Positions 43,413 through 64,000 of a DNA stretch of 64,000 nucleotides are shown here, one piece after another. Each line of letters opens with the position of its first letter. Positions within the stretch are counted from its first letter, which is position 1. Origin of the DNA: Debaryomyces hansenii CBS767 (Eukaryota; Ascomycota; Pichiomycetes; Serinales; Debaryomycetaceae); NCBI RefSeq assembly GCF_000006445.2, contig NC_006044.2, forward strand, positions 1,280,483-1,344,482, in the 5' to 3' direction. The translations under genes were made by a program, and so were the position numbers. Below the pieces are notes generated by a model. It had not been told where the DNA came from and did no database searches. It saw nothing but the letters and a program-made list of their open reading frames with translations.

Positions 43413-43439
43413 GATAAAAAAATAGCTTGTGAGTATGCA

Positions 43440-45371
43440 TTATCTTCGTGATGGTTTTGAAGCAATATCTTCTATCGTTATTTGGGTACTAAAAGTTCCT
43501 GAACTCCCTTCATCAAATACTTCTTCACTAGAAGAATTACTATCATTTCCATATTTGTCATTTTTGTCTGCTCTATCAGCAGGTATAGCTTCGCTTTTAA
43601 CATTAACTTGATTGGCATGCTTAAAACTTTCATTAGAACCATTTGATCTCAATATGTGTTCAAGAGTCTCAAAATCATTCTTCTTGTGTTCTTCATTATT
43701 TGTGTAGTCCGATAATCCAAAATCTATCAAAGATATCTTACCAGAAACAGACACATGAATGTTGGCTAGCCTAATATCATTATGCGAAATTCCTATCAGA
43801 TGAAGCTCTTCGAGTCTTGATTTGATAACTTTGTACACTTCTTTGTTATTCCACTTTTCTTCTGGGACCTCCTTCCCAAGGTATTCAAATATATGCATCG
43901 GATGATCAGAAAGCCCGTTCCAATAACCAGAAACAAGGAGCTTTGGGAAATTAGAAGCGAATTCTGACTTAGCAATTCTTTCATTAATTAAAAGCTCGTT
44001 GAAAAACATGCCATAATACCCCTCTTTTTCCGGTATCTCCAAACACATCAAACTATTCTCTTCCCACAATCGACTAGAGTAGTAGTATAGTTTGACAAAA
44101 ACTGGCGATGGAAGTTTCAAATCAGGATAAAATTCTGCGGAATCGTATATAACTCGACAATATGTGTTACCATCAATAGCATCAAAGTTATCACTGGCGT
44201 CGTTTTCTTTTACCGAATCTAAGTTGCCTGAAAACCCAGGTCTATCCAATTTTCCCGAAGATCCAGATGGGTCTCTAGGTCGAACGTTGAAAAATGGATC
44301 CAGTTCTTTAATACTTTTTACGTCGGTGCTGCTGGCAACACTAAAAATTTCCATCAACCTGGCCTTTGTATCAGCTGCATCACCAACACTTTTATAAAAA
44401 AATCCCGCTATAGCCGACCTTAAAGTGATGCCATTCTCCACAGTTTCTGGATTATTAATGACATAGTAGTCTATAATCATTTCGCCATCCACTATTTCAT
44501 ACCTAAAGAATCCTGAGAATGTTTGGTGGTCTGAAATAAGAATCCTATCCGTTCCGCAGAGGAAAGCTTGGTAGATATATTTGCTTAGAACCAACGCAAA
44601 TAATACTCTAGGCGACCACTCCCTATCTGGGAAGAAGTTCCCAATGGAATGCAGCCTCAATCTTCTTCGGTTCAGAATAGCTGTCTTGAATTCTTCGAAG
44701 CCTTGCATCATTTTATAGACTCCTGTTTTGTAATCACCTATCCCGAAAACAATCTCGGGATATTGCGTATTTAAATCCGACTTAGTTAACATGTGAATGA
44801 TATCAGGTTGTACCGCTCTTTTTCCATCTAATGGTGATTTTACAAACGATGGACTGCAAAAATGATTGGTTATATCACCAATATCACGATAAAGATGATC
44901 GATTGTTCGTGCTATTTCTCGATCAAAGTATTCTTGGATAGCTTGCTCCACATGCATTGCATCTCCCCGTGGGTAAGCATATTCTTGTGCTAAAGGTCGA
45001 CGGCAAATATTCGATTCTTTAAGAGCAATATCAAGCGGAGCAAGATACCTATCCTTGAAATCATCACTACTCATCTCCCTAAATTCAGCAGTAATCAATG
45101 CACGACTACTATACACAACAATAGGTATAGAAGGCATATTCCCTAGACTCACTGATGCATTACCCTTGGACACTAGTTTCTCACGACGGTCTTGCCCATC
45201 TTCATTACCCAGAATCTTAAGCAAGTGAGTGTCCAAAAAGACTCTCGTGTTTTGTTCATTGTTATTGAGAACCCTAATAAATAGATCAAGATTCACCCTA
45301 ATGCATCGATTCTCAGGGTCATCGTATGTGATAATATCACTATCTACCCCTGAAAAATACATACACGGCAT
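43440..45371 (-). CDS. Family A nuclease-kinase fusion protein, copy A1
   Basis: 643-residue subtelomeric protein with two domains. Residues about 130-235 fit a PD-(D/E)XK nuclease core: helix Glu in VEQAIQEYF, then QPDIIHM (Asp190) and VFGIGDYKTG (Asp213-x-Lys215), followed by a helix with a conserved Gly-Phe-Glu-Glu. Residues about 405-560 fit a small kinase-like fold: Lys427 in PVFVKLYYY, a Glu at 459 or 464, the hinge-like MHIFEYLGKE, HNDIRLANIH (530-539) as catalytic loop and LIDFGLSDY as DFG. Key residues of both domains are kept, so the protein may be active. A Ser/Asp-rich tail follows. The layout recalls Crinkler-type nuclease-kinase effectors of oomycetes and fungi; the true function is unknown. 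It is divergent from B1, shares the stop region with a B relic, and is nearly identical to A3. Confidence 0.85.
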   Translation of the reverse strand: MPCMYFSGVDSDIITYDDPENRCIRVNLDLFIRVLNNNEQNTRVFLDTHLLKILGNEDGQDRREKLVSKGNASVSLGNMPSIPIVVYSSRALITAEFREMSSDDFKDRYLAPLDIALKESNICRRPLAQEYAYPRGDAMHVEQAIQEYFDREIARTIDHLYRDIGDITNHFCSPSFVKSPLDGKRAVQPDIIHMLTKSDLNTQYPEIVFGIGDYKTGVYKMMQGFEEFKTAILNRRRLRLHSIGNFFPDREWSPRVLFALVLSKYIYQAFLCGTDRILISDHQTFSGFFRYEIVDGEMIIDYYVINNPETVENGITLRSAIAGFFYKSVGDAADTKARLMEIFSVASSTDVKSIKELDPFFNVRPRDPSGSSGKLDRPGFSGNLDSVKENDASDNFDAIDGNTYCRVIYDSAEFYPDLKLPSPVFVKLYYYSSRLWEENSLMCLEIPEKEGYYGMFFNELLINERIAKSEFASNFPKLLVSGYWNGLSDHPMHIFEYLGKEVPEEKWNNKEVYKVIKSRLEELHLIGISHNDIRLANIHVSVSGKISLIDFGLSDYTNNEEHKKNDFETLEHILRSNGSNESFKHANQVNVKSEAIPADRADKNDKYGNDSNSSSEEVFDEGSSGTFSTQITIEDIASKPSRR

Positions 45372-46092
45372 TATGTGATAAGAATATGGTGTTTATTGTT
45401 ATCCCTATAATCTTTGATTGGGTTACCCTTCCTTGAAATTGATTATGTAATTTTATAAACCATTACATAATTAAATGTCTTAACTAGTTGCGTAACAAAG
45501 CTTCGTTTTGTGATACCGTACTGCAAAATCTATGCAAGTTTGTAAAATACGACGTAAAAAGCATTTTGTCACTTGGCACTACATCCCCTGCATTTGGAGA
45601 TTGCGCGTTTTTCCCATAGTTAAGATGCACACCCGTTTGGGGTAAGTAGTCAACGTCGTAAAATGCGAATGTAAAATCAGCACTTTTAATTTTTTGTCAT
45701 TTGACGCAACCATAACTTGCAATTTGTTGTTTTTGAAGTGTCGCACGCTATGTTTTGCAGGTTACCCTGTGTGGTATCGTCATACAATTTAATCAATTAA
45801 ATATGTAAAGTACATCATATCAAAATTGTTCATAAAATTTCCGTCTTTTTCCATAGTCTACATCAGCATTTTCCTGGTTATCAACTACGATCTTACTAAA
45901 CTCGTCAATCTTGGTAATACCAAACCTTTTTTCGTGATGTTCGCATATCAGAACCCCACAAATGCAATTATTTCCTAGATGAAACTTGAAACAAGTATTT
46001 CTTTTATGCTTACTTTAATTAATCTCCTATAAATTGAGGAGGTCCCACATGAAAGAATAATGAAAGTTTTTGTTCACATTAACTTAATTACA
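45372..46092. promoter_or_regulatory. Shared divergent promoter A1/B1
   Basis: 720 bp between the head-to-head A1 and B1 genes. Blocks shared with the A3/B3 promoter include AACTTGCAAT followed by TTTTTGAAGTGTCGCACGC, CCATAGTTAAG, and TAAATTGAGGAGGTCCCACA just before B1. Conservation of these blocks despite drift between them suggests function. Confidence 0.5.
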
Positions 46093-48015
46093 ATGAACAA
46101 AGATTCTTTTTTTATTAATACTAAGAGATATATTTTGGAAGGCGGTGAGGATATTGATTCATTTGAGATTACCAAATTCGACTACAGAAAAATATTCAAT
46201 AACTATGTAGATCAGAATGTGAACTATAGAGAAATTTTGCACAAAATATTTGAAATTGAGAACGAATTAGACTTAGATATGGATCATGTGAGGTCACACT
46301 ATAAAGATCATCCAGATAAGTGGAAGGAATTATTTATTTTCTTTTGCGTTATGCCATTCACGGAGTACGAATTCCATGGCAAAGATGGAAAATTGTTGAA
46401 TCCTACTACTCTTCATGCTATTGGTTCCAGTCATGGTACAGACAATGTCCTTATTGAAACTTTTTCTGAACTTGAATTTGAATCATTCAACAAAATAATT
46501 CCGGAAGGTAGAGTGGCATTTAAGTTGGAGAATATCTTGAAAACTGACATATTCTCAAGTAATTTTAATCAAGATGAAACTAAAAGAATACTTACAAAAT
46601 TACTTGGAATTTGCTTTAAAGAAGATTATATGCTTGTAACAGATATTTCATCCACTGATGAGGATACCTACAGATTAAATTTTATGAATTATTTATTCAA
46701 CCCTATATGTGAATACGTAGCAGCATTATTAAAGTTTGAGATTAATGTCCGTACAAAAAATACTGCGGGTCGAACAGGAGTCAACACCAAAGTACCACAT
46801 CAATCTAATGATATGTTCCATTCGCACCCAGATGTCGTGGCGTATGATAAATGGAAACATCGAAGATCTCTTGCTATCGTGGAGGTAAAAAAGTTACCAA
46901 TCTTGAAAGGCGAGAAGGTAGTAAATTTTACGGAACCAAGAATGGTAAGTTTTATTATTCAAGTTGTTGCGGAAATGTTTTCTGACCACACAAACAAAGG
47001 CATGTTGACCGACTCATATACAACTATCTTGATCGAAATAGATATAGAACGAAGCATGGAAATAGTCAATCAAAAACTTACAGGCCCTGAAAACTGCAAA
47101 TTCATAGCCTTGAATTATAGAATTCTAGATTGTCAATCATCTGGCCTTACGTTGAGAGGAGGGCTAATTTCATTCATCTATGAGGCATTTAGTGCTAACG
47201 AATACCAATTAAATGACGTTAAAAGAGGACTAGATGCAATTTATGACTATGTTCGTAAGTCAGACGAGGAGTACTTGACATATTTAGACGGTCTAGGTGA
47301 GAAAGCTGATCAAATTTTCAAAAATAATTACAGCGCTTTTATGAGAAAATTATATGTCATTGAGCCAAAGATTGCACTTGGGGAGTTCAAACGTATTGAT
47401 GTACAAAGCGGGGTTACGTTTAATTCTCAACTTTTCAAAGTCAACTCTAAAGACGTAAAAATGTATCTCAAAGAAGACATCGATGAAACTGTAGAATTGA
47501 TTGTTAAAGTATTTGACCCTGCCAATGCAAAGAGAAATCATAATAAATACGTAATAAAAAAGCACGACATGTTTGATAATTGTCGAAGAGCATATTTATG
47601 TGAGAAGCGAGCATATGAACGGCTTTTACCTAATTTTAAGTTTAACAGCGTTTATATTGCTCAAGAACCTGTATACGGGAGATTCTTTATAGGAAATCAT
47701 TATCACGCATTGGGGCCATTTATCGTCTTGAAGTATTTGGCTAAAGAGACTCTACCACGCGATGAAGAAACCTATGAAAAAGCTAAAGAACAATTGAATA
47801 TAATCCACCTTTATAACATAATACATGGAGATATAAGCCCAAGGAATATTTTATATTCTCAAGGGAAGGTATATTTTATTGATTTTGGATACTCAGAATA
47901 CACAGAAGATAAATTAGGTTCCAATCCAGTGAGTGCTAACCCTGAGAGGATCAAGAGTGAACACGAACAGTTGTGTGGTATATTTGGTCAGCCTAATCCA
48001 AAGGAATATGAATAG
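46093..48015 (+). CDS. Family B nuclease-kinase fusion protein, copy B1
   Basis: 640-residue protein, distantly similar in layout to family A. I place the start at the ATG on 46,093 because it aligns with the only possible start of B3; an in-frame ATG 33 bases earlier exists here, but the matching frame in B3 is closed. The N-terminus has a conserved FIFFCVMPFTEYEF. The nuclease-like core has SHPDVVAY (Asp247) and LAIVEVKK (Glu264-x-Lys266). The C-terminal kinase-like part has IVKVFDP (Lys472), a Glu in LCEKRAYERL, the hinge GPFIVLKYL, IIHGDISPRNIL (HGD at 578-580, Asn585) and FIDFGYSEY (DFG at 597-599). All key residues look intact. Membership in the PD-(D/E)XK and kinase-like folds is by motif only. 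It is divergent from A1 and may work with it. Confidence 0.85.
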   Translation: MNKDSFFINTKRYILEGGEDIDSFEITKFDYRKIFNNYVDQNVNYREILHKIFEIENELDLDMDHVRSHYKDHPDKWKELFIFFCVMPFTEYEFHGKDGKLLNPTTLHAIGSSHGTDNVLIETFSELEFESFNKIIPEGRVAFKLENILKTDIFSSNFNQDETKRILTKLLGICFKEDYMLVTDISSTDEDTYRLNFMNYLFNPICEYVAALLKFEINVRTKNTAGRTGVNTKVPHQSNDMFHSHPDVVAYDKWKHRRSLAIVEVKKLPILKGEKVVNFTEPRMVSFIIQVVAEMFSDHTNKGMLTDSYTTILIEIDIERSMEIVNQKLTGPENCKFIALNYRILDCQSSGLTLRGGLISFIYEAFSANEYQLNDVKRGLDAIYDYVRKSDEEYLTYLDGLGEKADQIFKNNYSAFMRKLYVIEPKIALGEFKRIDVQSGVTFNSQLFKVNSKDVKMYLKEDIDETVELIVKVFDPANAKRNHNKYVIKKHDMFDNCRRAYLCEKRAYERLLPNFKFNSVYIAQEPVYGRFFIGNHYHALGPFIVLKYLAKETLPRDEETYEKAKEQLNIIHLYNIIHGDISPRNILYSQGKVYFIDFGYSEYTEDKLGSNPVSANPERIKSEHEQLCGIFGQPNPKEYE

Positions 48016-48699
48016 TTAAATGAAGAATGTATGGATTAATAACTATATACACGTATGTATTGAGTAGATGGGAAGCTGCGAGATAAGTGTCGCATGGCAT
48101 ACTATTTGCGGCAAACTGCGAATGCGAACATTTTATATAATCATCTGCGATTGCTGTCTGATTAGCGTCATCGTTGGGAATAAATACTAAAGCACCGATC
48201 TTTTAATGCCTAAGCTATACCCCTGACCAGTATCACCTAGACATTTAGTTAAGGCAGTATACGCATTTATTTGTCTATATCGCCAGCACAGACACTTATC
48301 ATCAACACATTAAAAATAAATTATAAATTACTAAACAACATAATTGATATAGTGATTTTAAAATATACTAAAATACTTAGAACTAACACACTTATATAGT
48401 AACAAAATTAGGATTACATAGAATATACCAATAGAATTCTCCACCTTTACTCCACCTTTACTCCACCGTTATAGGTCTTCTCTCAATCCTACTAATGCAC
48501 TAACTTCGTAATGGTTTCTCGTTTAAGGAGTTTGATGCAACGTCGCACTTGCCAGATTAAATTTTGCATGAGGAGGATGAGCGTGTATATCATTTTATTA
48601 TGTTATCAACTGAATGACTTTTCGTTATCTAATCATTTTTGTGATTACGTAGTTGCTTCAGCAAATTAACGATTACGTGCCGCTGATAAATTTATCAGC
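48016..48699. other. Subtelomeric spacer with a short tandem repeat
   Basis: About 680 bp between B1 and a mitochondrial insertion. It contains a small tandem repeat of CTCCACCTTTA (about 48,439-48,468). No gene seen. Confidence 0.45.
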
Positions 48700-49260
48700 A
48701 TGAGTAGGTAAAATTATTTCTTTTAATAATAATTTAGCAGCATCAGCTATAGCCATTAAAACTCCATATTATTACTTTAAGACAAACTGATTTAAAAGTT
48801 ATTATTGCTTATAGTTCTATCTCACATATGGCTGTATGTATATTAGGTATATTGTCTAATACAACAACTGGTATTACAGGAAGTTTAAGCTTTAGTTCCA
48901 GTTTTAGTTTTAATTGAAACTTTATCTTATAGTTCTAGAGCTATTTCATTAGGTTATTTATATTATCATTATTAAAAATAGAATATACACCTCAAGGAAC
49001 TATTACACCTTTAATAGTTACTTTATTAGCAATTCCTCTAATAAGATTCATTTTTATTTTTAATTTTTTTTTATTATTCTCAACTGAGAAATATAACATA
49101 GTTTATTCATACGACGTTTAAGTCTGGAGGTCTTTTATTAGATTCATTATCTATGGTTGTTATTGTTCCTGTTGGTATTGTTACTTTATCTGTATTAATT
49201 TATGCTATTGCCAAATATAGGTTTTTTACTATATGTTGAAACTATATGTGGTATTACTCC
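48700..49260 (+). pseudogene. Nuclear mitochondrial insertion (NUMT), mosaic of ND4, ATP6 and ND5 pieces
   Basis: A very AT-rich block whose reading frames are mitochondrial. 48,774-48,887 reads LRQTDLKVIIAYSSISHMAV and on through SNTTTGITGSL, a diagnostic ND4 segment. 48,889-48,953 reads LVPVLVLIETLSYSSRAISL, diagnostic of ATP6. 49,123-49,209 reads LLLDSLSMVVIVPVGIVTLS, diagnostic of ND5. The pieces sit in one direction but are not whole genes, and they are joined within a few bases of each other, so this is a mosaic of rearranged mtDNA. The block is non-functional in the nucleus. It shows the species has mitochondrial complex I genes. It lies between B1 and a broken B copy. Confidence 0.85.
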
Positions 49261-49315
49261 AAAACCAGAAATCATAAATAAAGTCATATCTATACTTTTT
49301 CGGACACCATGAAAA

Positions 49316-49360
49316 AAGTGCAACTGTTCTTTATTACTTTTGAACATACTGAATCAAAAC
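49316..49360 (+). repeat. Dispersed element, partial copy
   Basis: Contains TTACTTTTGAACATACTGAA then TCAAAACAAGCAAACAA, matching the right-hand part of the dispersed element (GTTTACTTTTGAG and ATCAAAACAAATAAACA in other copies). It lies between the mitochondrial insertion and the broken B copy. Confidence 0.4.
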
Positions 49361-49539
49361 AAGCAAACAATAGACTATCGCAAACATTGATTTTTAGATA
49401 AGATAGAATAATTAGAAAGTAATTAGCGATAGCAAAGTGATTAGGAGATGCAAAATAGTCGCACTTATTCGCAGGCCTTGACTAAATCTCTTGTTAGCAT
49501 ATATATAAAAGGTAACCATACACTTACTGGGACAGAAAA

Positions 49540-50931
49540 TTGCCGAGCATTACTTATCGTACTAAGTACTCAAATTTTCTCTATGTTGGTTTTCGGTTTA
49601 CATTTGAAGTATGCCCTTGTTAAAAGGCTGAAGCCACTTACAAGGATAACTTTCTGAGATATTTGTTTACACCCATAAGTGAATATGTTGCAGCTTTATT
49701 GAAGTTGAAGAGAAAAATACAGACGGCCAAACAGGAGTGCAAACTAAAGTTCCTCACACTACAAATGATTTATTTTATTCTCACCCGGATATTGCAGTAG
49801 CTTATACGGAGAAAATACACCACAGGTCATTACCTATTGTTAAGGTCAAAAAATTACCACTATTGAAGGGTGAAAAAGTGATAGACTTTAAAGATTCAAA
49901 AATGGTTAGATTCTTCATTCAAGTTGTAGCCAAATTGTTTTCTAACCACACTAACAAAGGTATGTTAACGGACTCTTATACAAGAATATTAGTTGAAATA
50001 GTCATTGAGAGGAACTTGGAAACAATCGAGCAAACAGAACTTTTGAATACAACAAGCCCATAGCTCTCCAATATAAAATATTGGATTGTCACTTTTCTGG
50101 ACTTACCTTGAGGGGTGGACTTATTTCGTTTATCTATGAGGCATTCAACGTCGACAGTACTCGATTAAATGAGATTAAGAGAGGGTTAGATAAGATCTAC
50201 AGGTATATTCGTAAGACGAACGAAGAATACTTAACGTATTTGGACGAATTAGCTGAGAAAGATGAAGAAGCCTATAAATCATTCTGTAAGGATGTTTATA
50301 AAGCTAAGGGGAAATACCTTTATGACACTGTAATTGGGCTTGGAGACTTTGCAGATATTGACGTTCAAAGTGGATTTACATTTAATTCACAGCTATTCAA
50401 AGTGAATAGTAATATCTAAATGAATATGTCGATGTAGCAGACCAATTGATTGTTAAGGTCTTTGACCCGGTCAAAGCGAAGAGAGATCATGATAGTTACA
50501 CAGTCGGCAAACTGAAAGTTTTAACAAATCCAGGAGAGGATATCTGTGCGAGAAGACAGCCTATGAAAGGCTAATATCTATGTTTTTGGCAAATCCAATA
50601 TCGGCGAGCACGACCACGCTTTGGGTCCATTTCTCATATTAAAGTATTTGGACAAAACCACAGGTCCATTAGACGAAGAAACTTACAAAAAACTGAAGAA
50701 CAATTAGAAATAATACACTGTAATCAGATAATACATGGAGACATTAATTTGAGAAATATTCTCTATTGCGGAGAGAAAGTCTATTTTATCGAGTTTGGGT
50801 ATTCTAATTATGATGATAACAAAGAAAAGCGCTCTAGGCCTGTAAGTGCTAACGAAGAAACTAAGAAAAGTGAACACAGAGAATTGTGTGAAGTATTTCG
50901 ACAGCCTATTCCAGAAAAATATAGATATTAG
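49540..50931 (+). pseudogene. Family B nuclease-kinase pseudogene, copy B2
   Basis: A 5'-truncated and frameshifted family B gene, closest to B3. Readable parts are ALVKRLKPL near 49,610, the nuclease-like core at 49,737-50,063 (SHPDIAVAY with one extra Ala, and LPIVKVKKLP), the middle at 50,081-50,419, and the kinase-like end at 50,749-50,931. In the core the catalytic Glu of EVKK has become Lys (VKVKK). In the last part DFG has become EFG (FIEFGYSNY). Thus both domains have lost key residues in addition to the frameshifts, as expected for a dead copy. The N-terminal quarter is missing. The copy is convergent with intact A2, the ancestral tail-to-tail order. Confidence 0.85.
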
Positions 50932-50939
50932 AAGAATGA

Positions 50940-51090
50940 TATACCCTACAATTGGGCGCGATCTATATTCGCATTTCTTTGGAATGGAATAGAATATTAG
51001 GTTTAGGCGAGAGGGATGCAAGACCGCTTCAACTCAACTATAACCTGTAAGCCCATGATCAAACTGGTTTTTATGTACTTTTGAGAGTAA
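50940..51090 (+). repeat. Dispersed element, copy 3
   Basis: Begins TATACCCTACAATTGGGCGC just after the B2 stop, with a degenerate right part (AAGCCCATGATCAAACTGG, TACTTTTGAGAGTAACATGA). It is nearly identical to the copy after B3 at 63,283. Confidence 0.6.
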
Positions 51091-51102
51091 CATGACGTCT
51101 AA

Positions 51103-51186
51103 ACTGAGAAGGAAAAACAAACACAACAGATTTGTCGAATCTTTGGTCAAATAATACCTGGCAAATATCAAGATTCAAACGAATAA
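51103..51186 (+). pseudogene. Family B C-terminal relic next to A2
   Basis: Reads TEKEKQTQQICRIFGQIIPG then KYQDSNE and a TAA at 51,184-51,186, 27 bp from the A2 stop. Its presence in addition to the complete C-terminus of B2 (ending 50,931) shows it is a second, older B remnant. Confidence 0.65.
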
Positions 51187-51213
51187 GATAAAAAAATAGC
51201 TTGTGAGTATGCA

Positions 51214-53157
51214 TTATCTTCGTGATGGTTTTGAAGCAATATCTTCTATCGTTATTTGGGTACCAAAAGTTCCAGAACTCCCTTCATCAAATACTTCTTC
51301 ACTAGAAGAATTACTATCATTTCCATATTTGTCATTTTTGTCTGCTCTATCAGCAGGTATAGCTTCGCTTTTAGCATTAACTCGATTGGCATGCTTATAA
51401 CTTTCATTAGAACCATGTACTCCCAATATGTAGTCAAGATTTTCAAAATCATTCTTTTTACGTTTCTCATTATTTGAGCAGTCCGATAATCCAAAATCAA
51501 TCAAAGAAATTTTGCCTGAAACAGAAACATGAATGTTGGCCGGCCTAACATCATTGTGTGAAATTCCTAACAGGTGAAGCTCTTTGAGTCTGGATTTGAT
51601 AACTCTATGCACTTTTTTCTTATCCCAATTATCCTCCTGCATTTCTTTCCCTAAATATTCAAATATATGCATCGGGTGATCGGGAAGCCCGTTCCAGTAA
51701 CCTGAAACAAGGAGCTTTGGGAAATTAGAAGCAAATTGAGAACTAGCAATTTTTTCATTAATTGCAAGTTCATTGAAGAACATGCCATAATACCCCTCTT
51801 TTTCCGGTAACTCCAAACACATCAAACTATTCCCTTTCCACAATCGACTAGAGTAGTAGTATAGTTTGACAAAAACTGGCGATGGAAGTTTCAAATCAGG
51901 ATAAAATTCTGCGGAATCGTATATAACTCGACAATATGTGTTACCATCAATGGCATCAAAGTTATCACTATCGTCATTTTCTTTTACTGGGTCTAACTTG
52001 CTTGCTAACTTACTTGAAACCCCGCTATCCGACAATTTTCCCGAAGATCCATAAGAAAGTTTAGGCAAAACGTTGAGAAATGGATCCTGTTCTTCAGTTT
52101 TTCTTGCCACCTCGAAAGTTTTCATCAACCTGCCCTTTGTATCAATCGCATCAGCCTCATTCTTATAGAAAAATCCGGCTATCGCCGACCTCAAAGTAAT
52201 GCCATGCTCCACAGTTTCTGGATCATTAATGATATAGTAGTCTATAGACATCTTGTCATTCATAATTTCATACTTAAAGAACCCTGAGAATGTTTGGTGA
52301 TCTGAAATAAAAAACCTGTCTGTTCCACAAAGGAAAGCTTGGTATATATATTTCCTTAAAACCAAAGCAAATAATACCCTAGGTGACCACTCCCTATTCG
52401 GAAAAAAGCTTCCACTGGATTGCAGCCTCAATCTTCTTCGATTCAGCAAATTCTCGATTTGACTCTCTATAGCTGCCTTCAATTCTTCAAATCCTTCCGT
52501 CATCTTATAGACTCCAGTTTTGTAATCACCTATCCCAAAAATAATTTCGGGATATTGTATATCCGACTTATATATCATGTGAATGATATCAGGTTGTACT
52601 ATTCTTCGTTGATCCAATGTGGGTCTTATAATTGATGGACTGCCAAAGTAGTTGTTCGTATCACCTACATCACGATAAAGTCCCTTGATTGGGATTGCTA
52701 TTTCATTAAAGTATTCTTGGATAGCATGTTCCACATGCATTGCATCCCCCGATGGATAACGATAGTCTTCTGCTAAAAGTCGGCTCCTGATACTCGACAC
52801 TCTAAGAGCATTATCAAGCGGCGCAAGGTACATATCCTTGAATTCATTACTACTCATCTCCCTGAATTCAGCAGTAATCAATGCTCGGCTGGTATACACA
52901 AGAACCCGCATAAAAGGCGTATTCCCTATGTCTACGGATGCCTTACTCCTGGGCACTAGTCTTCCTGGGGAGGTATTTTGGTCGCTTCTTCCACTTCGAA
53001 TCCTTAATAAGTGTGTATCCAAAAAAGCTCTTGCATTTTGTTCCTTGTTGTTGTGGACACCGTCGTATACCTCTGGGTTTACTACAATGCACTCGTTGCT
53101 AGGATCATCGATGGTGATAGCATTGCTATCTACCCCTGAAAAATACATACATGGCAT
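51214..53157 (-). CDS. Family A nuclease-kinase fusion protein, copy A2
   Basis: 647-residue intact family A member, clearly diverged from A1 and A3 in the N-terminal two thirds but nearly identical at the C-terminus. Nuclease-like motifs are kept (helix HVEHAIQEYF, VQPDIIHM, FGIGDYKTG). Kinase-like motifs are kept (PVFVKLYYY, HIFEYLGKE, SHNDVRPANIH, LIDFGLSDC). Differences include a short insertion ESQIEN after the nuclease core and a Ser-rich linker (SSGKLSDSGVSSKLASKL). The start MPCMYFSGVD is shared with A1. It is convergent with pseudogene B2 and has its own B relic at the 3' end. No intact B partner lies beside it, unlike A1 and A3. Intactness of the frame in spite of strong divergence argues for selection on the protein. 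Confidence 0.85.
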   Translation of the reverse strand: MPCMYFSGVDSNAITIDDPSNECIVVNPEVYDGVHNNKEQNARAFLDTHLLRIRSGRSDQNTSPGRLVPRSKASVDIGNTPFMRVLVYTSRALITAEFREMSSNEFKDMYLAPLDNALRVSSIRSRLLAEDYRYPSGDAMHVEHAIQEYFNEIAIPIKGLYRDVGDTNNYFGSPSIIRPTLDQRRIVQPDIIHMIYKSDIQYPEIIFGIGDYKTGVYKMTEGFEELKAAIESQIENLLNRRRLRLQSSGSFFPNREWSPRVLFALVLRKYIYQAFLCGTDRFFISDHQTFSGFFKYEIMNDKMSIDYYIINDPETVEHGITLRSAIAGFFYKNEADAIDTKGRLMKTFEVARKTEEQDPFLNVLPKLSYGSSGKLSDSGVSSKLASKLDPVKENDDSDNFDAIDGNTYCRVIYDSAEFYPDLKLPSPVFVKLYYYSSRLWKGNSLMCLELPEKEGYYGMFFNELAINEKIASSQFASNFPKLLVSGYWNGLPDHPMHIFEYLGKEMQEDNWDKKKVHRVIKSRLKELHLLGISHNDVRPANIHVSVSGKISLIDFGLSDCSNNEKRKKNDFENLDYILGVHGSNESYKHANRVNAKSEAIPADRADKNDKYGNDSNSSSEEVFDEGSSGTFGTQITIEDIASKPSRR

Positions 53158-53680: not shown

Positions 53681-53744
53681 AAACAAAGCCAAATAATGTA
53701 ATACCTATAATTTATATGTTCATCACATGCTTAACATAAAACAT

Positions 53745-53951: not shown

Positions 53952-54118
53952 AAGAAGGTTTGTGTTTTTCAGTTAGTAACGCTTTATAAAAGTAATAATT
54001 GGATTATGTACCACTTCGAACCCAAGCATCTGGAAGTCTACAATTAGTAAACTAACCATATTAGTTCCCCCAAAACTCACAATATAAAAAACAGAAATTG
54101 ATAGTATAAAACTATAGG

Positions 54119-55640
54119 GAGCCTAGTAGAACAATAATTCATTTGCGTATAGCCTTTTTTGCTCCTGTAGAAAATTCGACTTTTTCACCAAACTTTTCTA
54201 AAGTGAACTCTTGTAAAGCATTTTTACCACCGTATTCTTCAACATCTAATGATGTACCTCTATCCTTGTGTTTGGGTTCTGATGTCCCATATGGAAAGCC
54301 TAGAAAGTCTGGACCGGTTAAACCTTTTAAAAATGCCTCTCTTCGACAGAACGCATATTTAACATTGCGATCACACAATGGAGAAGAAGGTATATAAAAT
54401 ACTGATGTATCACTCTGGCCAGTGTAAACCGGATCTACCAAATGTATTAAATCATAATGCCAGAAAAGCATGTCACCTGGCTCAATTTAGGTGGAGGAAC
54501 CATAATAGATTTAAGGTTTAATTCAGGATGAGTTTCATCGCTCAATTCCAACCCTTTACCTGGGAAGCCACCATTAATATTTGAGTTGAACCTAAGTTGA
54601 TCAAAATGATCAACTTAGGTTCAACATGTAATACGCAGTGACAAGTTTGACAGATGGAGCGAATTTCATTCCTCCTTTATTTGGTTCAGTTTCAGAGAGA
54701 CTCAAGAATGCCTGAAATGTTCTGAATATACTGCAGTTCCCAATAGATTCATGTAAATTCATATCTGCACCAATTCTATGAGTAGCATCATAAGGTTCGT
54801 AATCTTCCCAACGACCTTCAAAAATAGGTTCATAACATTTACTGTATTCTGGATCTTCCCATCTTTCCAAGGATCCATCGTCTGCATGAGGTCCGAGTGA
54901 GAACAAAGTATCACCTGGTAGACAACCTGTCAGCATACGAAATATTTTGATCGAGACAGACTTTAGAGTCTGATGATGCATGCCATAATTTATTTGCAAA
55001 GTTGGTGGCTCTCCTCAAGCTTGGATGTGAGCGGGCATTTAATTGCGCCTTTACAACTCAAATACAACAGGATCCTCCGTGGGAAAGCCAGTTGTACTAG
55101 GATCTTTTTTACATAGTCCAACACTCTTAGCCTCTATTTTGGAATCACATTCTTGATTAAGAATGCACCCCTTTTTAAAATTTTGTATCTATCGTTCTCA
55201 CTTAGGTTTTGAAGGTCAGAAATCTCAACCGATGGAATCGCATTGTGTCCAAGTTCTTTGATCTCTTTGATTTCTTCTCGTAAAGTGCTTTTCAATCTCA
55301 ACCAACTAGCTGTAAACTCTTCTGGGTTGCACATTAAATCTTTCTTAATTTGGGCATATACTTCTGGAAGACCCTTGATAACAGAGTTTCCAAATGTTGC
55401 AAATGCTGATGATATGTCACCAGCTCCCTTTACCTTTGATTTATTAATATCATGGACACGAAAGCTAGGGTTAGATTGAGAATTTTCAACTGAGTGATTT
55501 TGCAGCATAGTAATGTTTTTTATCAAATGGTATATTTTGATAACGAGTATACCTAAAACATTAATAAAAGGAACTACGGTATCTCCCACATACGTTGGAA
55601 ACAAAATAGAACAAGCTTCTCTCAGTAACACATTTTGCAT
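54119..55640 (-). pseudogene. DUF1479 (YbiU-like) oxygenase-like pseudogene
   Basis: A decayed gene of the DUF1479 family, proteins of about 400-480 residues with a double-stranded beta-helix fold like Fe(II)/2-oxoglutarate dioxygenases and no settled function. The N-terminal piece (55,134-55,640) has AIPSVEISDLQNLSENDRYK followed by GAFLIKNVIPK, the usual opening. A middle piece (54,610-54,999) has GPHADDGSLERWEDPEYSK, with the His-x-Asp metal pair, and a DATHRIGADMN stretch. The last piece (54,139-54,471) has MLFWHYDLIHLVDP with the distal His, and LTGPDFLGFP. Frameshifts separate the pieces, part of the 5' half (55,000-55,133) is scrambled, and an inverted duplication breaks the frame at 54,585-54,625. 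It cannot make the full protein. Confidence 0.75.
54585..54625. repeat. Perfect 19-bp inverted repeat with 3-nt loop
   Basis: GTTGAACCTAAGTTGATCA (54,585-54,603), AAA, then its exact reverse complement (54,607-54,625). It lies inside the DUF1479 pseudogene and puts a stop into its frame, consistent with a snap-back copying error. Confidence 0.85.
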
Positions 55641-57116: not shown

Positions 57117-57359
57117 TTTTGATAATTTGATTAATAAAATAACAAATCGTTAGCCTTTTTAATGGCTATCTTAGCTCCCCTTGTGTGCCCTGATTCCTCA
57201 TCAAATTTTTCCAACCCAAATTCCTGCAATGCAGATCTTCCTCCACTTTGTTCCACAACTTCCAATTTTGCCCTACCAATATTTTCTTTTTCTGCTAGGC
57301 CATTAGGAAAACTTGGGAAATCTGGACCGGCCAATCCTCTTAAAAATGCTTCCCTCTGA
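57117..57359 (-). pseudogene. Second DUF1479 relic, C-terminal end
   Basis: An open 67-codon tail (57,131-57,334) reads AGPDFPSFPNGLAEKENIGR, then SALQEFGLEKFDEE, and ends GAKIAIKKANDLLFY. It parallels the end of the gene at 54,119 (GPDFLGFPYG, ALQEFTLEKFGE) but is clearly diverged, so it comes from a different family member. Only the C-terminus is left. Confidence 0.7.
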
Positions 57360-58182
57360 AGAAAAGAACAGGCATAGAAGAGGCGTAATGCCTAACAACA
57401 AATGCTTAATGCCCATAATTGTCTTCTAGCGATTGGTATGTATATTCTCCTCATACAATTTCTAAAGTATTAACAAATAGAGTGTATTCTAATCTCATGC
57501 TCAACAAATTCTCTGGTTATTGAAAATGAATTTGGAAAACCAACATAGCTAGCTTTCTATGGCAACAAACTTGCCAATAACATTGAAATTTCTACTTTTC
57601 TACTTCAAATACACGTTCATTGAAGATGGGAATATGGATATTGCTTTCGAAGACATTAAACAAAGCTAATAAAATGGTGGCTTCAATATCCCTATCTTTT
57701 AAAATTAAATAAATTCTTTGGGTGGATACTTCAACCAGTCAGTCAAGGGTATGATGGAGGCATAATGGAAGATTTAAAAAAAGCCAAATTGGACAAGCTA
57801 TTCCAACAATCCTCATGGGAGTAAATAAAGTACGATGACAAACAGCCGCAAAATTGGTTCATTATGTGTTGTTCCCGGTATTGTATTAATTGATATTATA
57901 TTTTCAAGTCTTGTTTGAGGGGGTGGGGTTATTCTAGCAATTATTAGGGGCTGGTAGTGCCGCAAATTTTGAAAATTTTCTAGGGTCAAGAATGTAATTG
58001 GGGTGGTGATATCGCTCTAGCATTTCCATTGCTTATAAAAGTATCCTACTCAACTCATAGACCACAAGCAAGTTATGTATTAAGTCATTTCTAGCTAATA
58101 AATAGTTAACAGAGAAAGTGTGGAAGTGCTAGGGAGTTGAAAGATGAGAGTGAGAGTTGTAAGGCATTAGACAAGTTCCAGG

Positions 58183-58281
58183 CGGGTAAATGCGTATACT
58201 GAGAAGGAAAAACAAGCACAACAACTTTGTCGAATCTTTGGTCAAATAATACCTGGCAAATATCAAGATTCAAATGAATAA
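58183..58281 (+). pseudogene. Family B C-terminal relic next to A3
   Basis: Same reading as the relic at 43,314 (RVNAYTEKEKQAQQLCRIFG then QIIPGKYQDSNE), ending 27 bp from the A3 stop. It was copied as part of the large duplication. Confidence 0.65.
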
Positions 58282-58308
58282 GATAAAAAAATAGCTTGTG
58301 AGTATGCA

Positions 58309-60234
58309 TTATCTTCGTGATGGTTTTGAAGCAATATCTTCTATCGTTATTTGGGTACTAAAAGTTCCTGAACTCCCTTCATCAAATACTTCTTCACTAG
58401 AAGAATTACTATCATTTCCATATTTGTCATTTTTGTCTGCTCTATCAGCAGGTATAGCTTCGCTTTTAACATTAACTTGATTGGCATGCTTAAAACTTTC
58501 ATTAGAACCATTTAATCTCAATATGTATTCAAGAGTCTCAAAATCATTCTTCTTGTGTTCTTCATTATTTGTGTAGTCCGATAATCCAAAATCTATCAAA
58601 GATATCTTACCAGAAACAGACACATGAATGTTGGCTAGCCTAATATCATTATGCGAAATTCCTATCAGATGAAGCTCTTCGAGTCTTGATTTGATAACTT
58701 TGTACACTTCTTTGTTATTCCACTTTTCTTCTGGGACCTCCTTCCCAAGGTATTCAAATATATGCATCGGATGATCAGAAAGCCCGTTCCAATAACCAGA
58801 AACAAGGAGCTTTGGGAAATTAGAAGCGAATTCTGACTTAGCAATTCTTTCATTAATTAAAAGCTCGTTGAAAAACATGCCATAATACCCCTCTTTTTCC
58901 GGTATCTCCAAACACATCAAACTATTCTCTTCCCACAATCGACTAGAGTAGTAGTATAGTTTGACAAAAACTGGCGATGGAAGTTTCAAATCAGGATAAA
59001 ATTCTGCGGAATCGTATATAACTCGACAATATGTGTTACCATCAATAGCATCAAAGTTATCACTGGCGTCGTTTTCTTTTACCGAATCTAAGTTGCCTGA
59101 AAACCCAGGTCTATCCAATTTTCCCGAAGATCCAGATGGGTCTCTAGGTCGAACGTTGAAAAATGGATCCAGTTCTTTAATACTTTTTACGTCGGTGCTG
59201 CTGGCAACACTAAAAATTTCCATCAACCTGGCCTTTGTATCAGCTGCATCACCAACACTTTTATAAAAAAATCCCGCTATAGCCGACCTTAAAGTGATGC
59301 CATTCTCCACAGTTTCTGGATTATTAATGACATAGTATTCTATAATCATTTCGCCATCCACTATTTCATACCTAAAGAATCCTGAGAATGTTTGGTGGTC
59401 TGAAATAAGAATCCTATCCGTTCCGCAGAGGAAAGCTTGGTAGATATATTTGCTTAGAACCAACGCAAATAATACTCTAGGCGACCACTCCCTATCTGGG
59501 AAGAAGTTCCCAATGGAATGCAGCCTCAATCTTCTTCGGTTCAGAATAGCTGTCTTGAATTCTTCGAAGCCTTGCATCATTTTATAGACTCCTGTTTTGT
59601 AATCACCTATCCCGAAAACAATCTCGGGATATTGCGTATTTAAATCCGACTTAGTTAACATGTGAATGATATCAGGTTGTACCGCTCTTTTTCCATCTAA
59701 TGGTGATTTTACAAACGATGGACTGCAAAAATGATTGGTTATATCACCAATATCACGATAAAGATGATCGATTGTTCGTGCTATTTCTCGATCAAAGTAT
59801 TCTTGGATAGCTTGCTCCACATGCATTGCATCTCCCAGTGGGTAAGGATAAGCCGGTGCCAAAAGCGGAATTGAAATATTTGACTCTTCAAGAGCCTTAT
59901 CAAGTGGAGCAAGATAGGTTTCCTTGAAATCATCACTACTCATCTCCCTAAATTCAGCAGTAATCAATGCACGACTAGTATACACAACAATAGGTATAGA
60001 AGGCATATTCCCTAGACCCACTGATGCATTACCCTTAGACACTAGTTTCTCTGCACGACGTTCTTGCCCATCTTCATTACCCCGAATCTTAAGCAAGTGA
60101 GTGTCCAAACAGACTCTCGTATTTTGTTCATTGTTATTGAGAACCCTAATAAATAGATCAAGATTCACCCTAATGCATCGATTCTCAGGGTCATCGTATG
60201 TGATAATATCACTATCTACCCCTGAAAAATACAT
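58309..60234 (-). CDS. Family A nuclease-kinase fusion protein, copy A3
   Basis: 641-residue protein nearly identical to A1 over most of its length, including all nuclease-like (QPDIIHM, GIGDYKTG) and kinase-like (HNDIRLANIH, LIDFGLSDY) motifs. Its start is MYFSGVD, three codons inside the A1 start, because the bases before it differ. Differences from A1 concentrate in a short stretch near residues 105-135 (59,820-59,935): SIPLLAPAYPYPLGDAMH against CRRPLAQEYAYPRGDAMH in A1. The rest shows only scattered changes. It is divergent from B3, the same arrangement as A1/B1. Such high identity between copies 15 kb apart indicates recent duplication or gene conversion. Confidence 0.85.
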   Translation of the reverse strand: MYFSGVDSDIITYDDPENRCIRVNLDLFIRVLNNNEQNTRVCLDTHLLKIRGNEDGQERRAEKLVSKGNASVGLGNMPSIPIVVYTSRALITAEFREMSSDDFKETYLAPLDKALEESNISIPLLAPAYPYPLGDAMHVEQAIQEYFDREIARTIDHLYRDIGDITNHFCSPSFVKSPLDGKRAVQPDIIHMLTKSDLNTQYPEIVFGIGDYKTGVYKMMQGFEEFKTAILNRRRLRLHSIGNFFPDREWSPRVLFALVLSKYIYQAFLCGTDRILISDHQTFSGFFRYEIVDGEMIIEYYVINNPETVENGITLRSAIAGFFYKSVGDAADTKARLMEIFSVASSTDVKSIKELDPFFNVRPRDPSGSSGKLDRPGFSGNLDSVKENDASDNFDAIDGNTYCRVIYDSAEFYPDLKLPSPVFVKLYYYSSRLWEENSLMCLEIPEKEGYYGMFFNELLINERIAKSEFASNFPKLLVSGYWNGLSDHPMHIFEYLGKEVPEEKWNNKEVYKVIKSRLEELHLIGISHNDIRLANIHVSVSGKISLIDFGLSDYTNNEEHKKNDFETLEYILRLNGSNESFKHANQVNVKSEAIPADRADKNDKYGNDSNSSSEEVFDEGSSGTFSTQITIEDIASKPSRR

Positions 60235-61285
60235 ATGTTATAGATATTCAATAAGGTGTTTATTGTTATCCCTATAATCTTTGATTGGGTTACCCTTCCT
60301 TGAAATTGATTATGTAATTTTATAAACCATTACATAATTAAATGTCTTAACTAGTTGCGTCTTAACAAAGCTTCGTTTTGTGATACCGCACTGCAAAATC
60401 TTTGTAAAATACGACGTATAAAAGATTGTGTCACTTGGCACTGCTATAACGCAGCTTGTGTGGTATCGTCTTTTGGACTATCCCCTGCACTTGGAGATTG
60501 CGCGTGTTTTCCATAGTTAAGGGGCACACCCGTTTGGGTGCAATGTCGCGGTGCAATATCGTGGGTGCAATGTCGTAAATGTTTGTAAACTGGAAAAAAA
60601 AAGAGAAGGTAAGATTGTATTACGTTATCGAAGAATTTTAGTAAAGCACATAATTGCAGTCGTTTATGGTTATTCGCTCTGTTGAAAGATTTTATTATTT
60701 GCGAGCTTCCACTAAAAAAATGCACTTGAGCTTTTCATATTGTAACCATTCGACGCCACAACACATCAACTTGAGACTCGACAGCCCGAATCAAGAATTA
60801 ACGTGTGCAAACTTATATGATAGATAAGTAGTCAACGTCAATGCGAATGTAAATCAGCACTTTTAATTTATTGTCATTTGACACAAACCATAACTTGCAA
60901 TCTGTTGTTTTTGATGTGTCGCACGCAACATTTTACAGGTTGCGCTATGTGGGATCGTCATGCTATCAATTAACCATGTAAAGTACAGTAGTCCCCTTAG
61001 AATTCATCATATCAAAATTGTTCATAAAATTTCTGTCTTTTTCCATAGTCCACATCAGCATTTTCCTGGTTATCAACTACGATCTTACTAAACTCGCGAA
61101 TCTTGGTAATAAAAAAACTTCATCGTAGATGTTCGCATTTCAATAACCCCACAAAATGCAATTATTTCCTAGATGAAACTTGAAACAAGTATTTCTTTTA
61201 TGCTAACTTTAATTAATTTGCCATAAATTGAGGAGGTGCCACAAGAAAGAATAATGATGTTTTTGCTCGCATCAATATAATCACG
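60235..61285. promoter_or_regulatory. Shared divergent promoter A3/B3
   Basis: 1.05 kb between head-to-head A3 and B3. It is homologous to the A1/B1 region but longer by an extra block of about 290 bp (60,539-60,828) that contains three GTGCAATGTCG-like words. Conserved blocks include GTGTCGCACGC and TAAATTGAGGAGGTGCCACA before B3. Confidence 0.5.
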
Positions 61286-63274
61286 ATGAATAATAGCACT
61301 TTTTCTAATAGTATTAGGAGATATATTTTGGAAGGAGGCGGTGAAGACAAGGACATGGATATTGATGTTGATGCTGATATTGATCTATTTGAGATTACCA
61401 AATTCAACTATAGAACATTATTCGATAAAAGTGCGAATCAAAATATCACCCATACCGAAATGGTGTATAAAGTTTTTGGAATTGAAAATATAAGAAGTTT
61501 ATCTGATGTGGATACAGTTCCTCAAAAGCACAAGTGGTATTTTGACGATCATCCGGATGAATGGAAAAAATTATTCATCTTCTTTTGCGTTATGCCGTTT
61601 ACTGAATATGAATTTCAAGGATCTGATGGTAAACTACTAAATCCTGATTCTCTTCATATTGCTTGTCCGAGTGAAGCTACTGACAACCTTCTAATTGGAA
61701 CTTTTTCAGATATAGAATTTGAATCACTGAACCAAGAAATATTGGAAGATAGACTTGCTGCTAATTTGCAGTGTATTTTGAAAACTGACCTATTCTCTAA
61801 TACTTTCAGCCAAGATCAAAGAAAAAAAGTTATTACGAAGTTGCTTGGAGTTTGCTTTAAACAGGACTATAAGCTTGTTAAGCATATTGGGTTAAAGACA
61901 GAAGCAACTTACAGAGATAATTTTCTGATCTATTTGTATAAACCCATAAGTGACTATGTTTCAGCTTTATTAGGCTTTGAAATAGAAGTTGAAGAGAGAA
62001 ATACAGTTGGTCAGACAGGAGTGCAAACTAGAGTACCTCACACAACAAATGATTTATTTTATTCTCATCCGGATATTGTAGCTTATACGGAGAAAATACA
62101 TTACCGATCATTAGCTATTGTAGAGGTCAAAAAATTACCACTTTTGAAGGGAAACAAAGTGATAAACTTTAATGATTCAAAAATAGTTAGATTCTTCGTT
62201 CAAGTTGTCGCGGAAATGTTTTCTAACCACACTAACAAAGGCATGCTAACAGACTCTTATACAACGATATTGGTTGAAATAGATATCGAGAGGAGTTTGG
62301 AGGCAATCAAGCATAGTACAGAGCTTTTGGATTCCAGCAAGCATATAGCTCTCAATTATAAGATCTTGGATTGTCACTCGTCGGGACTTACTTTGAGAGG
62401 TGGACTCATTTCATTTATCTATGAGGCATTCAACGTCGATGCGATTCTATTAAATGAGATTAAGAGAGGACTAGAAAAGATCTATAAGTATATTCGTAAG
62501 ACAGACGAAGAATACTTGACTTATATTGATGGACTAGCCGAGAAATATGAAGCAGCTTATAGAAATTTCTGTATCGATGCTTATAGGACTAAAGAGCAAC
62601 GCCTTTGCCTTTATGATACAAGTATAAGTCTTGGAAAGTTTGACAAAATTGATGTGCAAAGTGGGTTTAGTTTCAATTCTCAACTTTTCAAAGTAGATAT
62701 TAAAGAGGTAAAAGATTATTTAAGAGAAAATATTGGGATAGGCGACAAATTGATTGTTAAGGTCTTTGATCCAATCAAGGCCAAGAGAAAACATGATAGT
62801 TATACGGTCGACAAAACTGATATTTTCGGCAAATGCCGAAGAGCATATCTGTGTGAGAAGACAGCCTATGAAAAGCTAATAACTAATCTAAAATTTAACA
62901 GCATTTACATTGATCAGCAATGTGTTTTTGGTAAGTTCAATATCGGCGAACACTACCACGCTTTGGGACCATTTCTCATATTAAAGTATTTGGGTCAAAC
63001 GAAATGTCCATTGGACGAGGAAACTTATAAAAAGGCTGAAGAACAATTAGAAATAATCCACTTAAATGGGATAATACACGGGGACATTAATTTGAGAAAT
63101 ATTCTCTATTACAAAGGGAAAGTCTATTTTATCGATTTTGGGTATTCTAATTATGATGATAACGACGAAAAGCGTTCTAGGCCAGTAACTGCTAATGAAG
63201 AGACTAAGAAGAGTGAACACAGAGAATTGTGCGAAGTATTTCGACAGCCTATTCCAGAAAAATATAGATATTAG
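61286..63274 (+). CDS. Family B nuclease-kinase fusion protein, copy B3
   Basis: 662-residue intact family B member, much more diverged from B1 than A3 is from A1. Only the ATG at 61,286 can start the frame, as an upstream ATG is closed by a stop. Near the N-terminus it has an Asp-rich insertion (KDMDIDVDADIDL, 22-34) absent from B1. Nuclease-like motifs are SHPDIVAY (Asp263) and LAIVEVKK (Glu280-x-Lys282). Kinase-like motifs are LIVKVFDP, LCEKTAYEKL, GPFLILKYL, IIHGDINLRNIL (HGD from residue 598) and FIDFGYSNY (DFG from 617). It is divergent from A3 and convergent with the truncated A4 at the telomere. The 3' flank is almost the same as that of pseudogene B2, so B2/A2 and B3/A4 descend from one tail-to-tail block. 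Confidence 0.85.
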   Translation: MNNSTFSNSIRRYILEGGGEDKDMDIDVDADIDLFEITKFNYRTLFDKSANQNITHTEMVYKVFGIENIRSLSDVDTVPQKHKWYFDDHPDEWKKLFIFFCVMPFTEYEFQGSDGKLLNPDSLHIACPSEATDNLLIGTFSDIEFESLNQEILEDRLAANLQCILKTDLFSNTFSQDQRKKVITKLLGVCFKQDYKLVKHIGLKTEATYRDNFLIYLYKPISDYVSALLGFEIEVEERNTVGQTGVQTRVPHTTNDLFYSHPDIVAYTEKIHYRSLAIVEVKKLPLLKGNKVINFNDSKIVRFFVQVVAEMFSNHTNKGMLTDSYTTILVEIDIERSLEAIKHSTELLDSSKHIALNYKILDCHSSGLTLRGGLISFIYEAFNVDAILLNEIKRGLEKIYKYIRKTDEEYLTYIDGLAEKYEAAYRNFCIDAYRTKEQRLCLYDTSISLGKFDKIDVQSGFSFNSQLFKVDIKEVKDYLRENIGIGDKLIVKVFDPIKAKRKHDSYTVDKTDIFGKCRRAYLCEKTAYEKLITNLKFNSIYIDQQCVFGKFNIGEHYHALGPFLILKYLGQTKCPLDEETYKKAEEQLEIIHLNGIIHGDINLRNILYYKGKVYFIDFGYSNYDDNDEKRSRPVTANEETKKSEHRELCEVFRQPIPEKYRY

Positions 63275-63987: not shown

Positions 63988-64000
63988 TCTTTCCAGCATA
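63988..64000. other. Non-telomeric bases at the window end
   Basis: After the last GGATGT the sequence reads CTTTCCAGCATA, which does not fit the repeat. Either the array is interstitial or this is an assembly or read-end artefact. Confidence 0.5.

Follow-up and report, generated by a model that had tools for sequence, protein, structure and literature searches.

The A and B gene families of Debaryomyces hansenii each encode one protein in which an N-terminal domain, a nuclease motif, a linker and a kinase follow in this order. By analogy with the SPOK proteins of Podospora, there is roughly an even chance that they are single-protein toxin-antidotes. The central PD-(D/E)XK nuclease would be the poison, damaging DNA, and the C-terminal kinase of the same protein the antidote, phosphorylating itself or a target, while the variable N-terminal domain would decide mutual recognition among variants. 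Subtelomeric duplication and conversion would spread the genes, in many cases with a head-to-head A-B pair moving as one unit. Catalytic activity, toxicity, antidote action, and drive or addiction are what we infer from these proteins. If this is true, nuclease-kinase poison-antidotes in one protein reach Debaryomyces, beyond filamentous fungi. Each genome would then carry many diverse members in two paired branches, and exchange of specificity at the telomeres would have left a visible trace. The sequence-only reading had proposed a two-component conflict system; we keep genetic conflict as the likeliest explanation but not an obligate A/B partnership, as A is found without B and B-prime without A.

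The window analyzed is a 64,000-nt stretch of strain CBS767 (GCF_000006445.2, NC_006044.2 1,280,483-1,344,482, forward strand). Open reading frames translated with code 12 (CTG=Ser) confirmed the three intact A genes, two intact B genes and several relics claimed before (Table 1). Segments 42747-45641 and 57633-60538 are 95.6% identical, which points to a recent duplication or conversion. With its many copies and relics, the family shows birth and death.

Table 1. Features of families A and B in window coordinates.
Feature	Position	Strand	Size	Remarks
Decayed A relic	~32877-34050	-		centromere-proximal; outside 43440-63274
Intact A gene	43440-45371	-	643 aa	N-terminal domain; PD-(D/E)XK-like part with DUF3698 match 181-280; kinase ~396-575; low-confidence tail 577-643
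Divergent A-B intergenic region	45372-46059		688 bp	conserved in other pairs
Intact B gene	46060-48015	+	651 aa	N-terminal domain, PD-(D/E)XK-like domain (HPDVV, EVKK), kinase
B relic, several frames	~49565-50928	+		convergent with A at 51214-53157
Intact A gene	51214-53157	-	647 aa	73% identity to A at 43440
Intact A gene	58309-60234	-	641 aa	
Divergent A-B intergenic region	60235-61285		1051 bp	conserved
Intact B gene	61286-63274	+	662 aa	mosaic
A-gene 3' end	63560-63703	-	49 codons	runs into telomere-type array
16-nt telomere-type repeat array, unit AGGTGTAGGGATGTTG	63695-63988	+		contig end

The motif positions named earlier were recovered in both families. The nuclease motif of A consists of P189-D190 followed by D213-Y214-K215, and its kinase residues are K427, E459, H530-x-D532, N537, and D550. 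In the B copy at 61286, the nuclease motif comprises P262-D263, E280-x-K282, and Q306, with kinase residues K492, E524, H598-x-D600, N605, and D617. Among 61 aligned A proteins, gaps counting as misses, D190 is kept in 50, D213 in 52, and K215 in 55. B and B-prime share 26-28% identity between groups, and in their 29 aligned proteins D263, E280, K282, and Q306 are each conserved in 28 and the proline in 18. Kept across the divergent B and B-prime groups and across the aligned A proteins, the motifs are not due to chance. The predicted order of this part in both families, helix-strand-strand-strand-helix-strand, together with the motif, is compatible with PD-(D/E)XK.

The claimed fusion is supported in both families, for the kinase by profile and structure and for the nuclease-like part by motif, conservation, and predicted strand and helix order. 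A C-terminal kinase with a catalytic Asp is present in A and B, and kinase matches fill the five fold-search lists of the models, none of which covers the nuclease part. Nuclease profiles run against solved structures gave chance-level matches only (kinase or nitrogenase fragments), and a Pfam scan of seven nuclease pieces gave DUF3698 for A and otherwise chance matches or nothing. An HSDR_N_2 search of the D. hansenii genome had no match, the same search being positive in 4 of 14 control genomes. All low-E-value Pfam matches of A and B are to kinase families and DUF3698. By its profile match (E 6.6e-44; 149 and 146 bits against a cut-off of 25 in the two A proteins scanned), A is a member of PF12479 (DUF3698), an uncharacterized Pfam family whose match spans the nuclease motifs; the SPOK-like reading would offer this family a testable function. 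B has no match to PF12479, and its kinase matches RIO1 weakly (E 7e-6). At the N-terminus, the secondary structure of the models begins with short strands in A and with a low-confidence helix in B.

The two families had been described as not alignable by eye outside the motifs. This holds for the nuclease core and the N-domain, where hhalign found no similarity apart from one helix, but not for the kinase domains, which share sequence (hhalign E 1.5e-16). Nor does it hold for that 'TLR' helix, which follows the nuclease part (E 2e-4; reached by 0 of 100 column shuffles, in a comparison window picked only once the motif had been noticed). A and B may represent two anciently diverged branches of one family expanded in Debaryomyces.

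The dN/dS ratio across copies is lowest in the nuclease and kinase regions, indicating purifying selection. Using the same gene pairs for every region, with dS below 2 and not near zero, we obtained values of 0.25 for the nuclease, 0.22 for the kinase, 0.44 for the N-domain, and 0.45 for the linker of A (36 of 91 pairs), and of 0.16, 0.21, 0.31, and 0.57, respectively, for B (22 of 36 pairs). Pair sets chosen per region (dS 0.02-1.5) give similar ratios. N-termini are mosaics: the first 60 residues of the B protein at 61286 match a B copy of another subgroup. Compared with the C3-left B gene, its dS is 1.08 in the N-domain and 0.016 in the kinase, and compared with the C1-left B gene, 0.41 and 1.48.

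Both catalytic sets are present in 73 of 96 distinct A proteins. Of these, 59 have both intact, 11 have a broken nuclease and an intact kinase, one shows the reverse, and two have both broken (11 versus 1, exact p 0.006, relatedness ignored). On a tree of 79 rows, from which 23 proteins without part of a catalytic set were excluded, 10 changes of nuclease state compare with two of kinase state. When truncations are counted, six A proteins keep the nuclease but miss part of the kinase set, and 12 show the reverse. Loss of the nuclease first is what a toxin-antidote would be expected to show, because losing the antidote before the poison would be harmful. The asymmetry is absent from the 44 B and B-prime proteins with both sets, where one has a broken nuclease and a kept kinase and two a broken kinase and a kept nuclease. 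The open B-prime gene L025 (592 aa) has N at the catalytic Asp and an intact nuclease motif, which is unexpected under a strict poison-antidote model unless other copies protect. Several nuclease-broken A rows have long branches in the tree, and these could be pseudogenes. Generally stronger constraint on kinases would yield an identical asymmetry in A.

The proposed subtelomeric setting was borne out: of the 20 open A copies 15, and of the nine intact B copies eight, are located within 70 kb of a contig end. This list was picked by hand; it includes one A truncated at a contig end and one of 593 aa, and four of its internal A were classed from the open-frame listing. That A and B always adjoin is true of B only. 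Each of the nine intact B has an A no more than 3 kb away, an open A in seven cases and only an A relic in two (one relic being a weak match). Among the 20 open A, 11 have a B or a relic of one at this distance, eight of them an open B, and nine have neither; at internal loci, open A stands alone in all five cases. None of the 10 B-prime genes has an A in the surrounding 29 kb. Nine of 11 long subtelomeric B loci (merged length >1700, three relics included) lie within 3 kb of an A, against 2.1 expected under random placement, and 0 of 10000 draws reached nine. This test left out 10 of 73 A rows as kinase hits from across the families. Of the 75 B rows, 26 were dropped: 12 were B-prime, another 12 were cross-family hits, and two overlapped other rows. 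All 15 open subtelomeric A point to the centromere and all eight intact subtelomeric B to the telomere; relics are looser, with the same sense in 9 of 13 A and 12 of 13 B. The intergenic region 45372-46059 shares pieces of 80-96% identity with 60235-61285, C1 left, and C6 left, and its main piece is ~70% identical to the A2-B region of C3 left. The divergent region is thus kept even where the A genes share just ~50% identity, as in the comparison of A1-B pairs with a single A2-B pair.

Protein searches found A relatives in Priceomyces and Scheffersomyces, genera from which the B search returned nothing. Together with the lone A copies and B-prime without A, this runs counter to families that occur only together; neither obviously needs the other, because each protein has both catalytic sets. 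The B-prime profile search gave 13 proteins, and all organism-named ones are from Debaryomyces. Named homologues from the protein searches are yeasts only, plus bacterial MAG labels; contamination is assumed for the two A relatives that carry the label Staphylococcus equorum MAG (P0024, P0061). No A relative was confirmed in GTDB genomes (59 pattern matches), and in IMG/VR 29 pattern matches for B and 133 for A likewise yielded no confirmed relative.

SPOK, unnamed in the sequence-only reading, appears to be a closer functional analogue than Crinkler. According to PMC6660238, the SPOK nuclease domain is required for killing and the kinase domain for resistance; SPOK3 comprises an N-domain, PD-(D/E)XK, and kinase, with K240 required for killing and D667 for resistance. 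SPOK1 is reported to act by damaging DNA in both E. coli and S. cerevisiae, and SPOK homologues are known in Fusarium and others. Like A and B, SPOK combines in a single protein an N-terminal domain, a PD-(D/E)XK nuclease (by motif in A/B), and, at the C-terminus, a kinase bearing a catalytic Asp, and forms multicopy, patchy families in dynamic chromosome regions (PMC6660238 and PMC12693581). Killing is known for SPOK and predicted for A and B. Judged by secondary structure, the A/B models show no evident counterpart of the coiled coil at the SPOK N-terminus, and the SPOK cluster C-x3-C-x13-C-x5-H-x7-H is absent, by strict and loose pattern, from 33 of 33 copies (14 A, nine B, and 10 B-prime). 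Three protein searches with A, B, and B-prime returned no entry named SPOK, the likeness being one of described architecture.

The Crinkler comparison stands for the REase+kinase architecture (nuclease by motif and topology), a REase-superfamily domain joined to a kinase (PMC5289972), but neither motif nor Pfam revealed a CR header: LxLFLAK is absent from the first 100 residues of the 33 genomic copies, and Pfam gave no other N-terminal family, CR header included, in four A/B proteins scanned. The tdk genes, a single-gene killer meiotic driver family with many copies and pseudogenes, have nine D. hansenii relatives proposed as possible drivers, according to a preprint (PMC12930445); they resemble A and B in being multicopy with pseudogenes, but are defined by IPR013902. 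Unlike the RIO and Bud32-PRPK atypical kinases, B is fused to a nuclease-like domain. FunK1 (PF17667) has no A/B match, its 20 listed genome matches all lying at other loci. A literature search under DUF3698 found nothing, and no description of A or B appears in the portions covered of PMC12930445 and PMC10427833. PMC4055711 and PMC2876123 show that D. hansenii has expanded gene families and pseudogenes in its subtelomeres; the portions covered do not name A or B.

We consider a true two-component module unlikely, in which A and B would be two nuclease-kinases that share a divergent promoter and form a hetero-complex or inhibit each other. The pairing of intact B with A, its excess over random placement, the intergenic region conserved even between A1-B and A2-B, and the uniform polarity argue for such a module, but pairing and polarity would persist through subtelomeric exchange alone, relic polarity is looser, and open A without nearby B, B-prime without A, and Priceomyces and Scheffersomyces A without detectable B speak against it. 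Similarly unlikely is intracellular defence, in which the proteins would attack incoming DNA such as cytoplasmic linear plasmids or transposons, the N-domain serving for recognition and the kinase as a switch. A fast-changing mosaic N-terminal domain atop a conserved catalytic body would suit this role, and D. hansenii nuclei have reportedly captured a linear plasmid repeatedly, going by the title of one study; repeated loss of the A nuclease motif with the kinase retained does not fit.

Slightly less likely still is that the genes are subtelomeric passengers, which exchange between chromosome ends has made multicopy and whose kinase serves cell physiology rather than conflict. The duplication within the window, the many relics, and the better conservation of the kinase than the nuclease in A agree with this, but the nuclease also appears to be under selection, because dN/dS is 0.16-0.25 in both catalytic domains and the nuclease residues are conserved. 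Least probable are Crinkler/CR-type effectors released against other organisms: REase+kinase makes up about one sixth of CR C-termini, per a review of Zhang et al. 2016 (PMC5289972), but the lack of LxLFLAK or a further N-terminal family, and of a named oomycete or filamentous-fungus relative at the sensitivity used, argues against them.

Within the SPOK-like reading, a tentative and rather unlikely extension is that the A-B pair is a linked double driver, two self-sufficient, distantly related nuclease-kinase poison-antidotes under one promoter, paired because together they protect and kill a wider range of genotypes, whose N-cassettes are swapped between subtelomeres by conversion to yield new killing specificities. 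If true, budding yeasts would have a toxin-antidote class of the SPOK kind, with chromosome ends as its diversification ground. The natural N-terminal chimeras would provide yeast test material for selective killing and resistance by SPOK-type proteins. Recurrent telomere truncation was considered and rejected: C2 left, C4 right, and C5 right are cut inside or near A or B, carry no telomere repeats, and look like assembly ends.

The window covers the final 64 kb of a 1,344,482-bp contig, in an assembly of 12.18 Mb and 8 contigs. The three A and two B genes picked out in the sequence-only reading are intact under code 12 at the positions it assigned to them, and further A/B remains are found in the window: a B relic, another A relic, and the end of an A gene truncated at the telomere. 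At 63695-63988, a 16-nt telomere-type repeat begins within A-gene coding sequence, so that the chromosome end is capped within an A copy. The database entries DEHA2A00242p, DEHA2C00110p and DEHA2D19404p of D. hansenii CBS767 are identical to three A proteins of the genome.

Coordinates of the A and B genes of the window, a neighboring gene and an internal B-prime cluster
Feature	Location	Strand	Setting
A gene	window 43440-45371	-	
B gene	window 46060-48015	+	
A gene	window 51214-53157	-	
Gig2-like (PF07350) gene, two pieces in separate ORFs	window 54610-55640	-	between A/B units
A gene	window 58309-60234	-	
B gene	window 61286-63274	+	
Three B-prime genes	L026:1142-7849 (genome stretch)		internal cluster

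The kinases of A and B are homologous (hhalign E 1.5e-16), and the TLR helix following the nuclease is common to both families (E 2e-4; 0 of 100 shuffles); N-domains and nuclease cores gave no A-B alignment by profile (hhalign). A and B appear to be distant paralogues with a collinear layout. There is also a third group, B-prime, whose 10 open genes (592-662 aa) sit at internal loci and are 26-28% identical to B. The B-prime gene at L026:1142-3007 has an intact kinase set and a broken nuclease motif, and a single B-prime gene on another stretch (L025:805-2583) carries N at the kinase catalytic position.

After merging, the genome holds 39 A and 27 B loci. Open, near full-length frames, chosen by hand, number about 20 in A and 9 in B. 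Each of the 9 intact B genes has an A at a distance of at most 3 kb: an open A in 7 cases, only an A relic in 2. Conversely, 11 of the 20 open A genes have a B or B relic no more than 3 kb away, and for 8 of them an open B is that close. The five open A genes more than 70 kb from a contig end all stand without a B nearby, and A is absent within 29 kb of all 10 B-prime genes. Long B loci in the subtelomeres number 11, relics accounting for 3, and nine of the 11 are within 3 kb of A, a number reached in none of 10,000 draws when these loci were placed at random (mean 2.1). Open subtelomeric A genes all read toward the centromere (15/15) and intact subtelomeric B genes toward the telomere (8/8), with looser polarity in relics (same sense in 9/13 A and 12/13 B). 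The gene system is real, striking and was correctly seen, but the two-component A+B system proposed for it gives way to two often-paired families of putative nuclease-kinase conflict genes, each probably self-contained.

Using the same pairs for all regions, dN/dS for nuclease, kinase, N-domain and linker is 0.25, 0.22, 0.44 and 0.45 in A (36 of 91 pairs) and 0.16, 0.21, 0.31 and 0.57 in B (22 of 36). With per-region pair sets, the corresponding values are 0.25, 0.21, 0.35 and 0.44 in A (tail, 0.75), 0.23, 0.21, 0.28 and 0.54 in B, and 0.28, 0.30, 0.38 and 0.42 in B-prime. Among 96 distinct A proteins, both catalytic sets are intact in 59 and mutated in 2, only the nuclease is mutated in 11 and only the kinase in 1; part of a set is missing in the other 23 (nuclease absent with kinase intact, 12; nuclease intact with kinase absent, 6; others, 5). 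All 13 nuclease-mutated rows, inspected at the motif stretches, are genuine departures rather than misalignments, and a tree of 79 A rows, several of its branches long, has 10 nuclease-state changes versus 2 kinase-state changes. In the 47 distinct B/B-prime proteins, 41 have both sets intact and 3 lack the kinase; the nuclease alone is mutated in 1 and the kinase alone in 2, and the asymmetric loss seen in A is therefore not present.

The B gene at 61286 is a mosaic. Its residues 1-60 are nearest to the copy at the left end of C1 (97%), residues 61-130 are equally near to C1-left and C4-right (72%), and from about residue 121 onward the nearest copies are C4-right and C3-left (nuclease 94%, kinase 95-98% identical). 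From residue 211 onward, C1-left is only 43-83% identical per 30-residue window, apart from one linker window at 23%, and synonymous distances reverse likewise along the gene. Such a reversal in the order of nearest copies cannot arise from rate variation but can from exchange. Comparable patchiness is seen at residues ~121-180 in A.

The best-fitting mechanism would be a poison and its antidote within one protein, as in the Podospora spore-killer proteins (SPOK). Killing by SPOK3 is reported to require the nuclease lysine and resistance the kinase Asp (PMC6660238), and kinase-mutated SPOK1 reportedly causes DNA damage in E. coli and yeast (PMC9972908). Some Fusarium homologues are described as toxin plus antidote in yeast, and accessory chromosomes as rich in homologues (PMC12693581). 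Asymmetric loss in A, the mosaic N-domain, copy-number turnover and location at chromosome ends are consistent with SPOK-like action, whereas the B/B-prime exceptions and the missing SPOK cysteine cluster are at odds with it. SPOK-like working of A and B is plausible, with about even chances; their identification as actual SPOK is not supported. Another driver family, tdk, is proposed for D. hansenii in a preprint (PMC12930445).

Relatives were sought by searches that depend on 5-residue words in common, each scoring some 7600-8000 candidates. For A they yielded 88 proteins: those carrying an organism name belong to Debaryomyces, Priceomyces carsonii and Scheffersomyces xylosifermentans, and two bear the label Staphylococcus equorum MAG. 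For B and B-prime they yielded 17 and 13 proteins, with organism names from Debaryomyces only. In all six A proteins of S. xylosifermentans, the nuclease set is incomplete or mutated. By a rough proxy for co-location (longest contigs of equal size, B clusters with a longest contig of at least 5 kb), 6 of 11 B clusters match an A cluster, one of the six being the present assembly.

Four A-B pairs from three chromosome ends, including the two in the window, share pieces of more than 250 bp at 80-92% identity in their divergent intergenic regions. The main pieces in the one A2-B pair compared are ~70-74% identical to the other divergent regions, so the head-to-head unit is either old relative to the divergence of the A subgroups A1 and A2 or maintained by conversion. 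At the left end of C6, ~1.4 kb of extra sequence lies between B and A (L034/L035 junction) inside an otherwise conserved intergenic region. A ~220-bp piece of the divergent region recurs in two convergent A-B intergenic regions (L029:3598-4559, L032:4576-5536) and may thus be a short element repeated at both kinds of junction. The left end of C2 is probably an assembly end rather than a telomere: the contig opens (L039:1-35) with an apparent cloning-vector polylinker, which looks from its sequence to be of vector origin, joined to an A gene.
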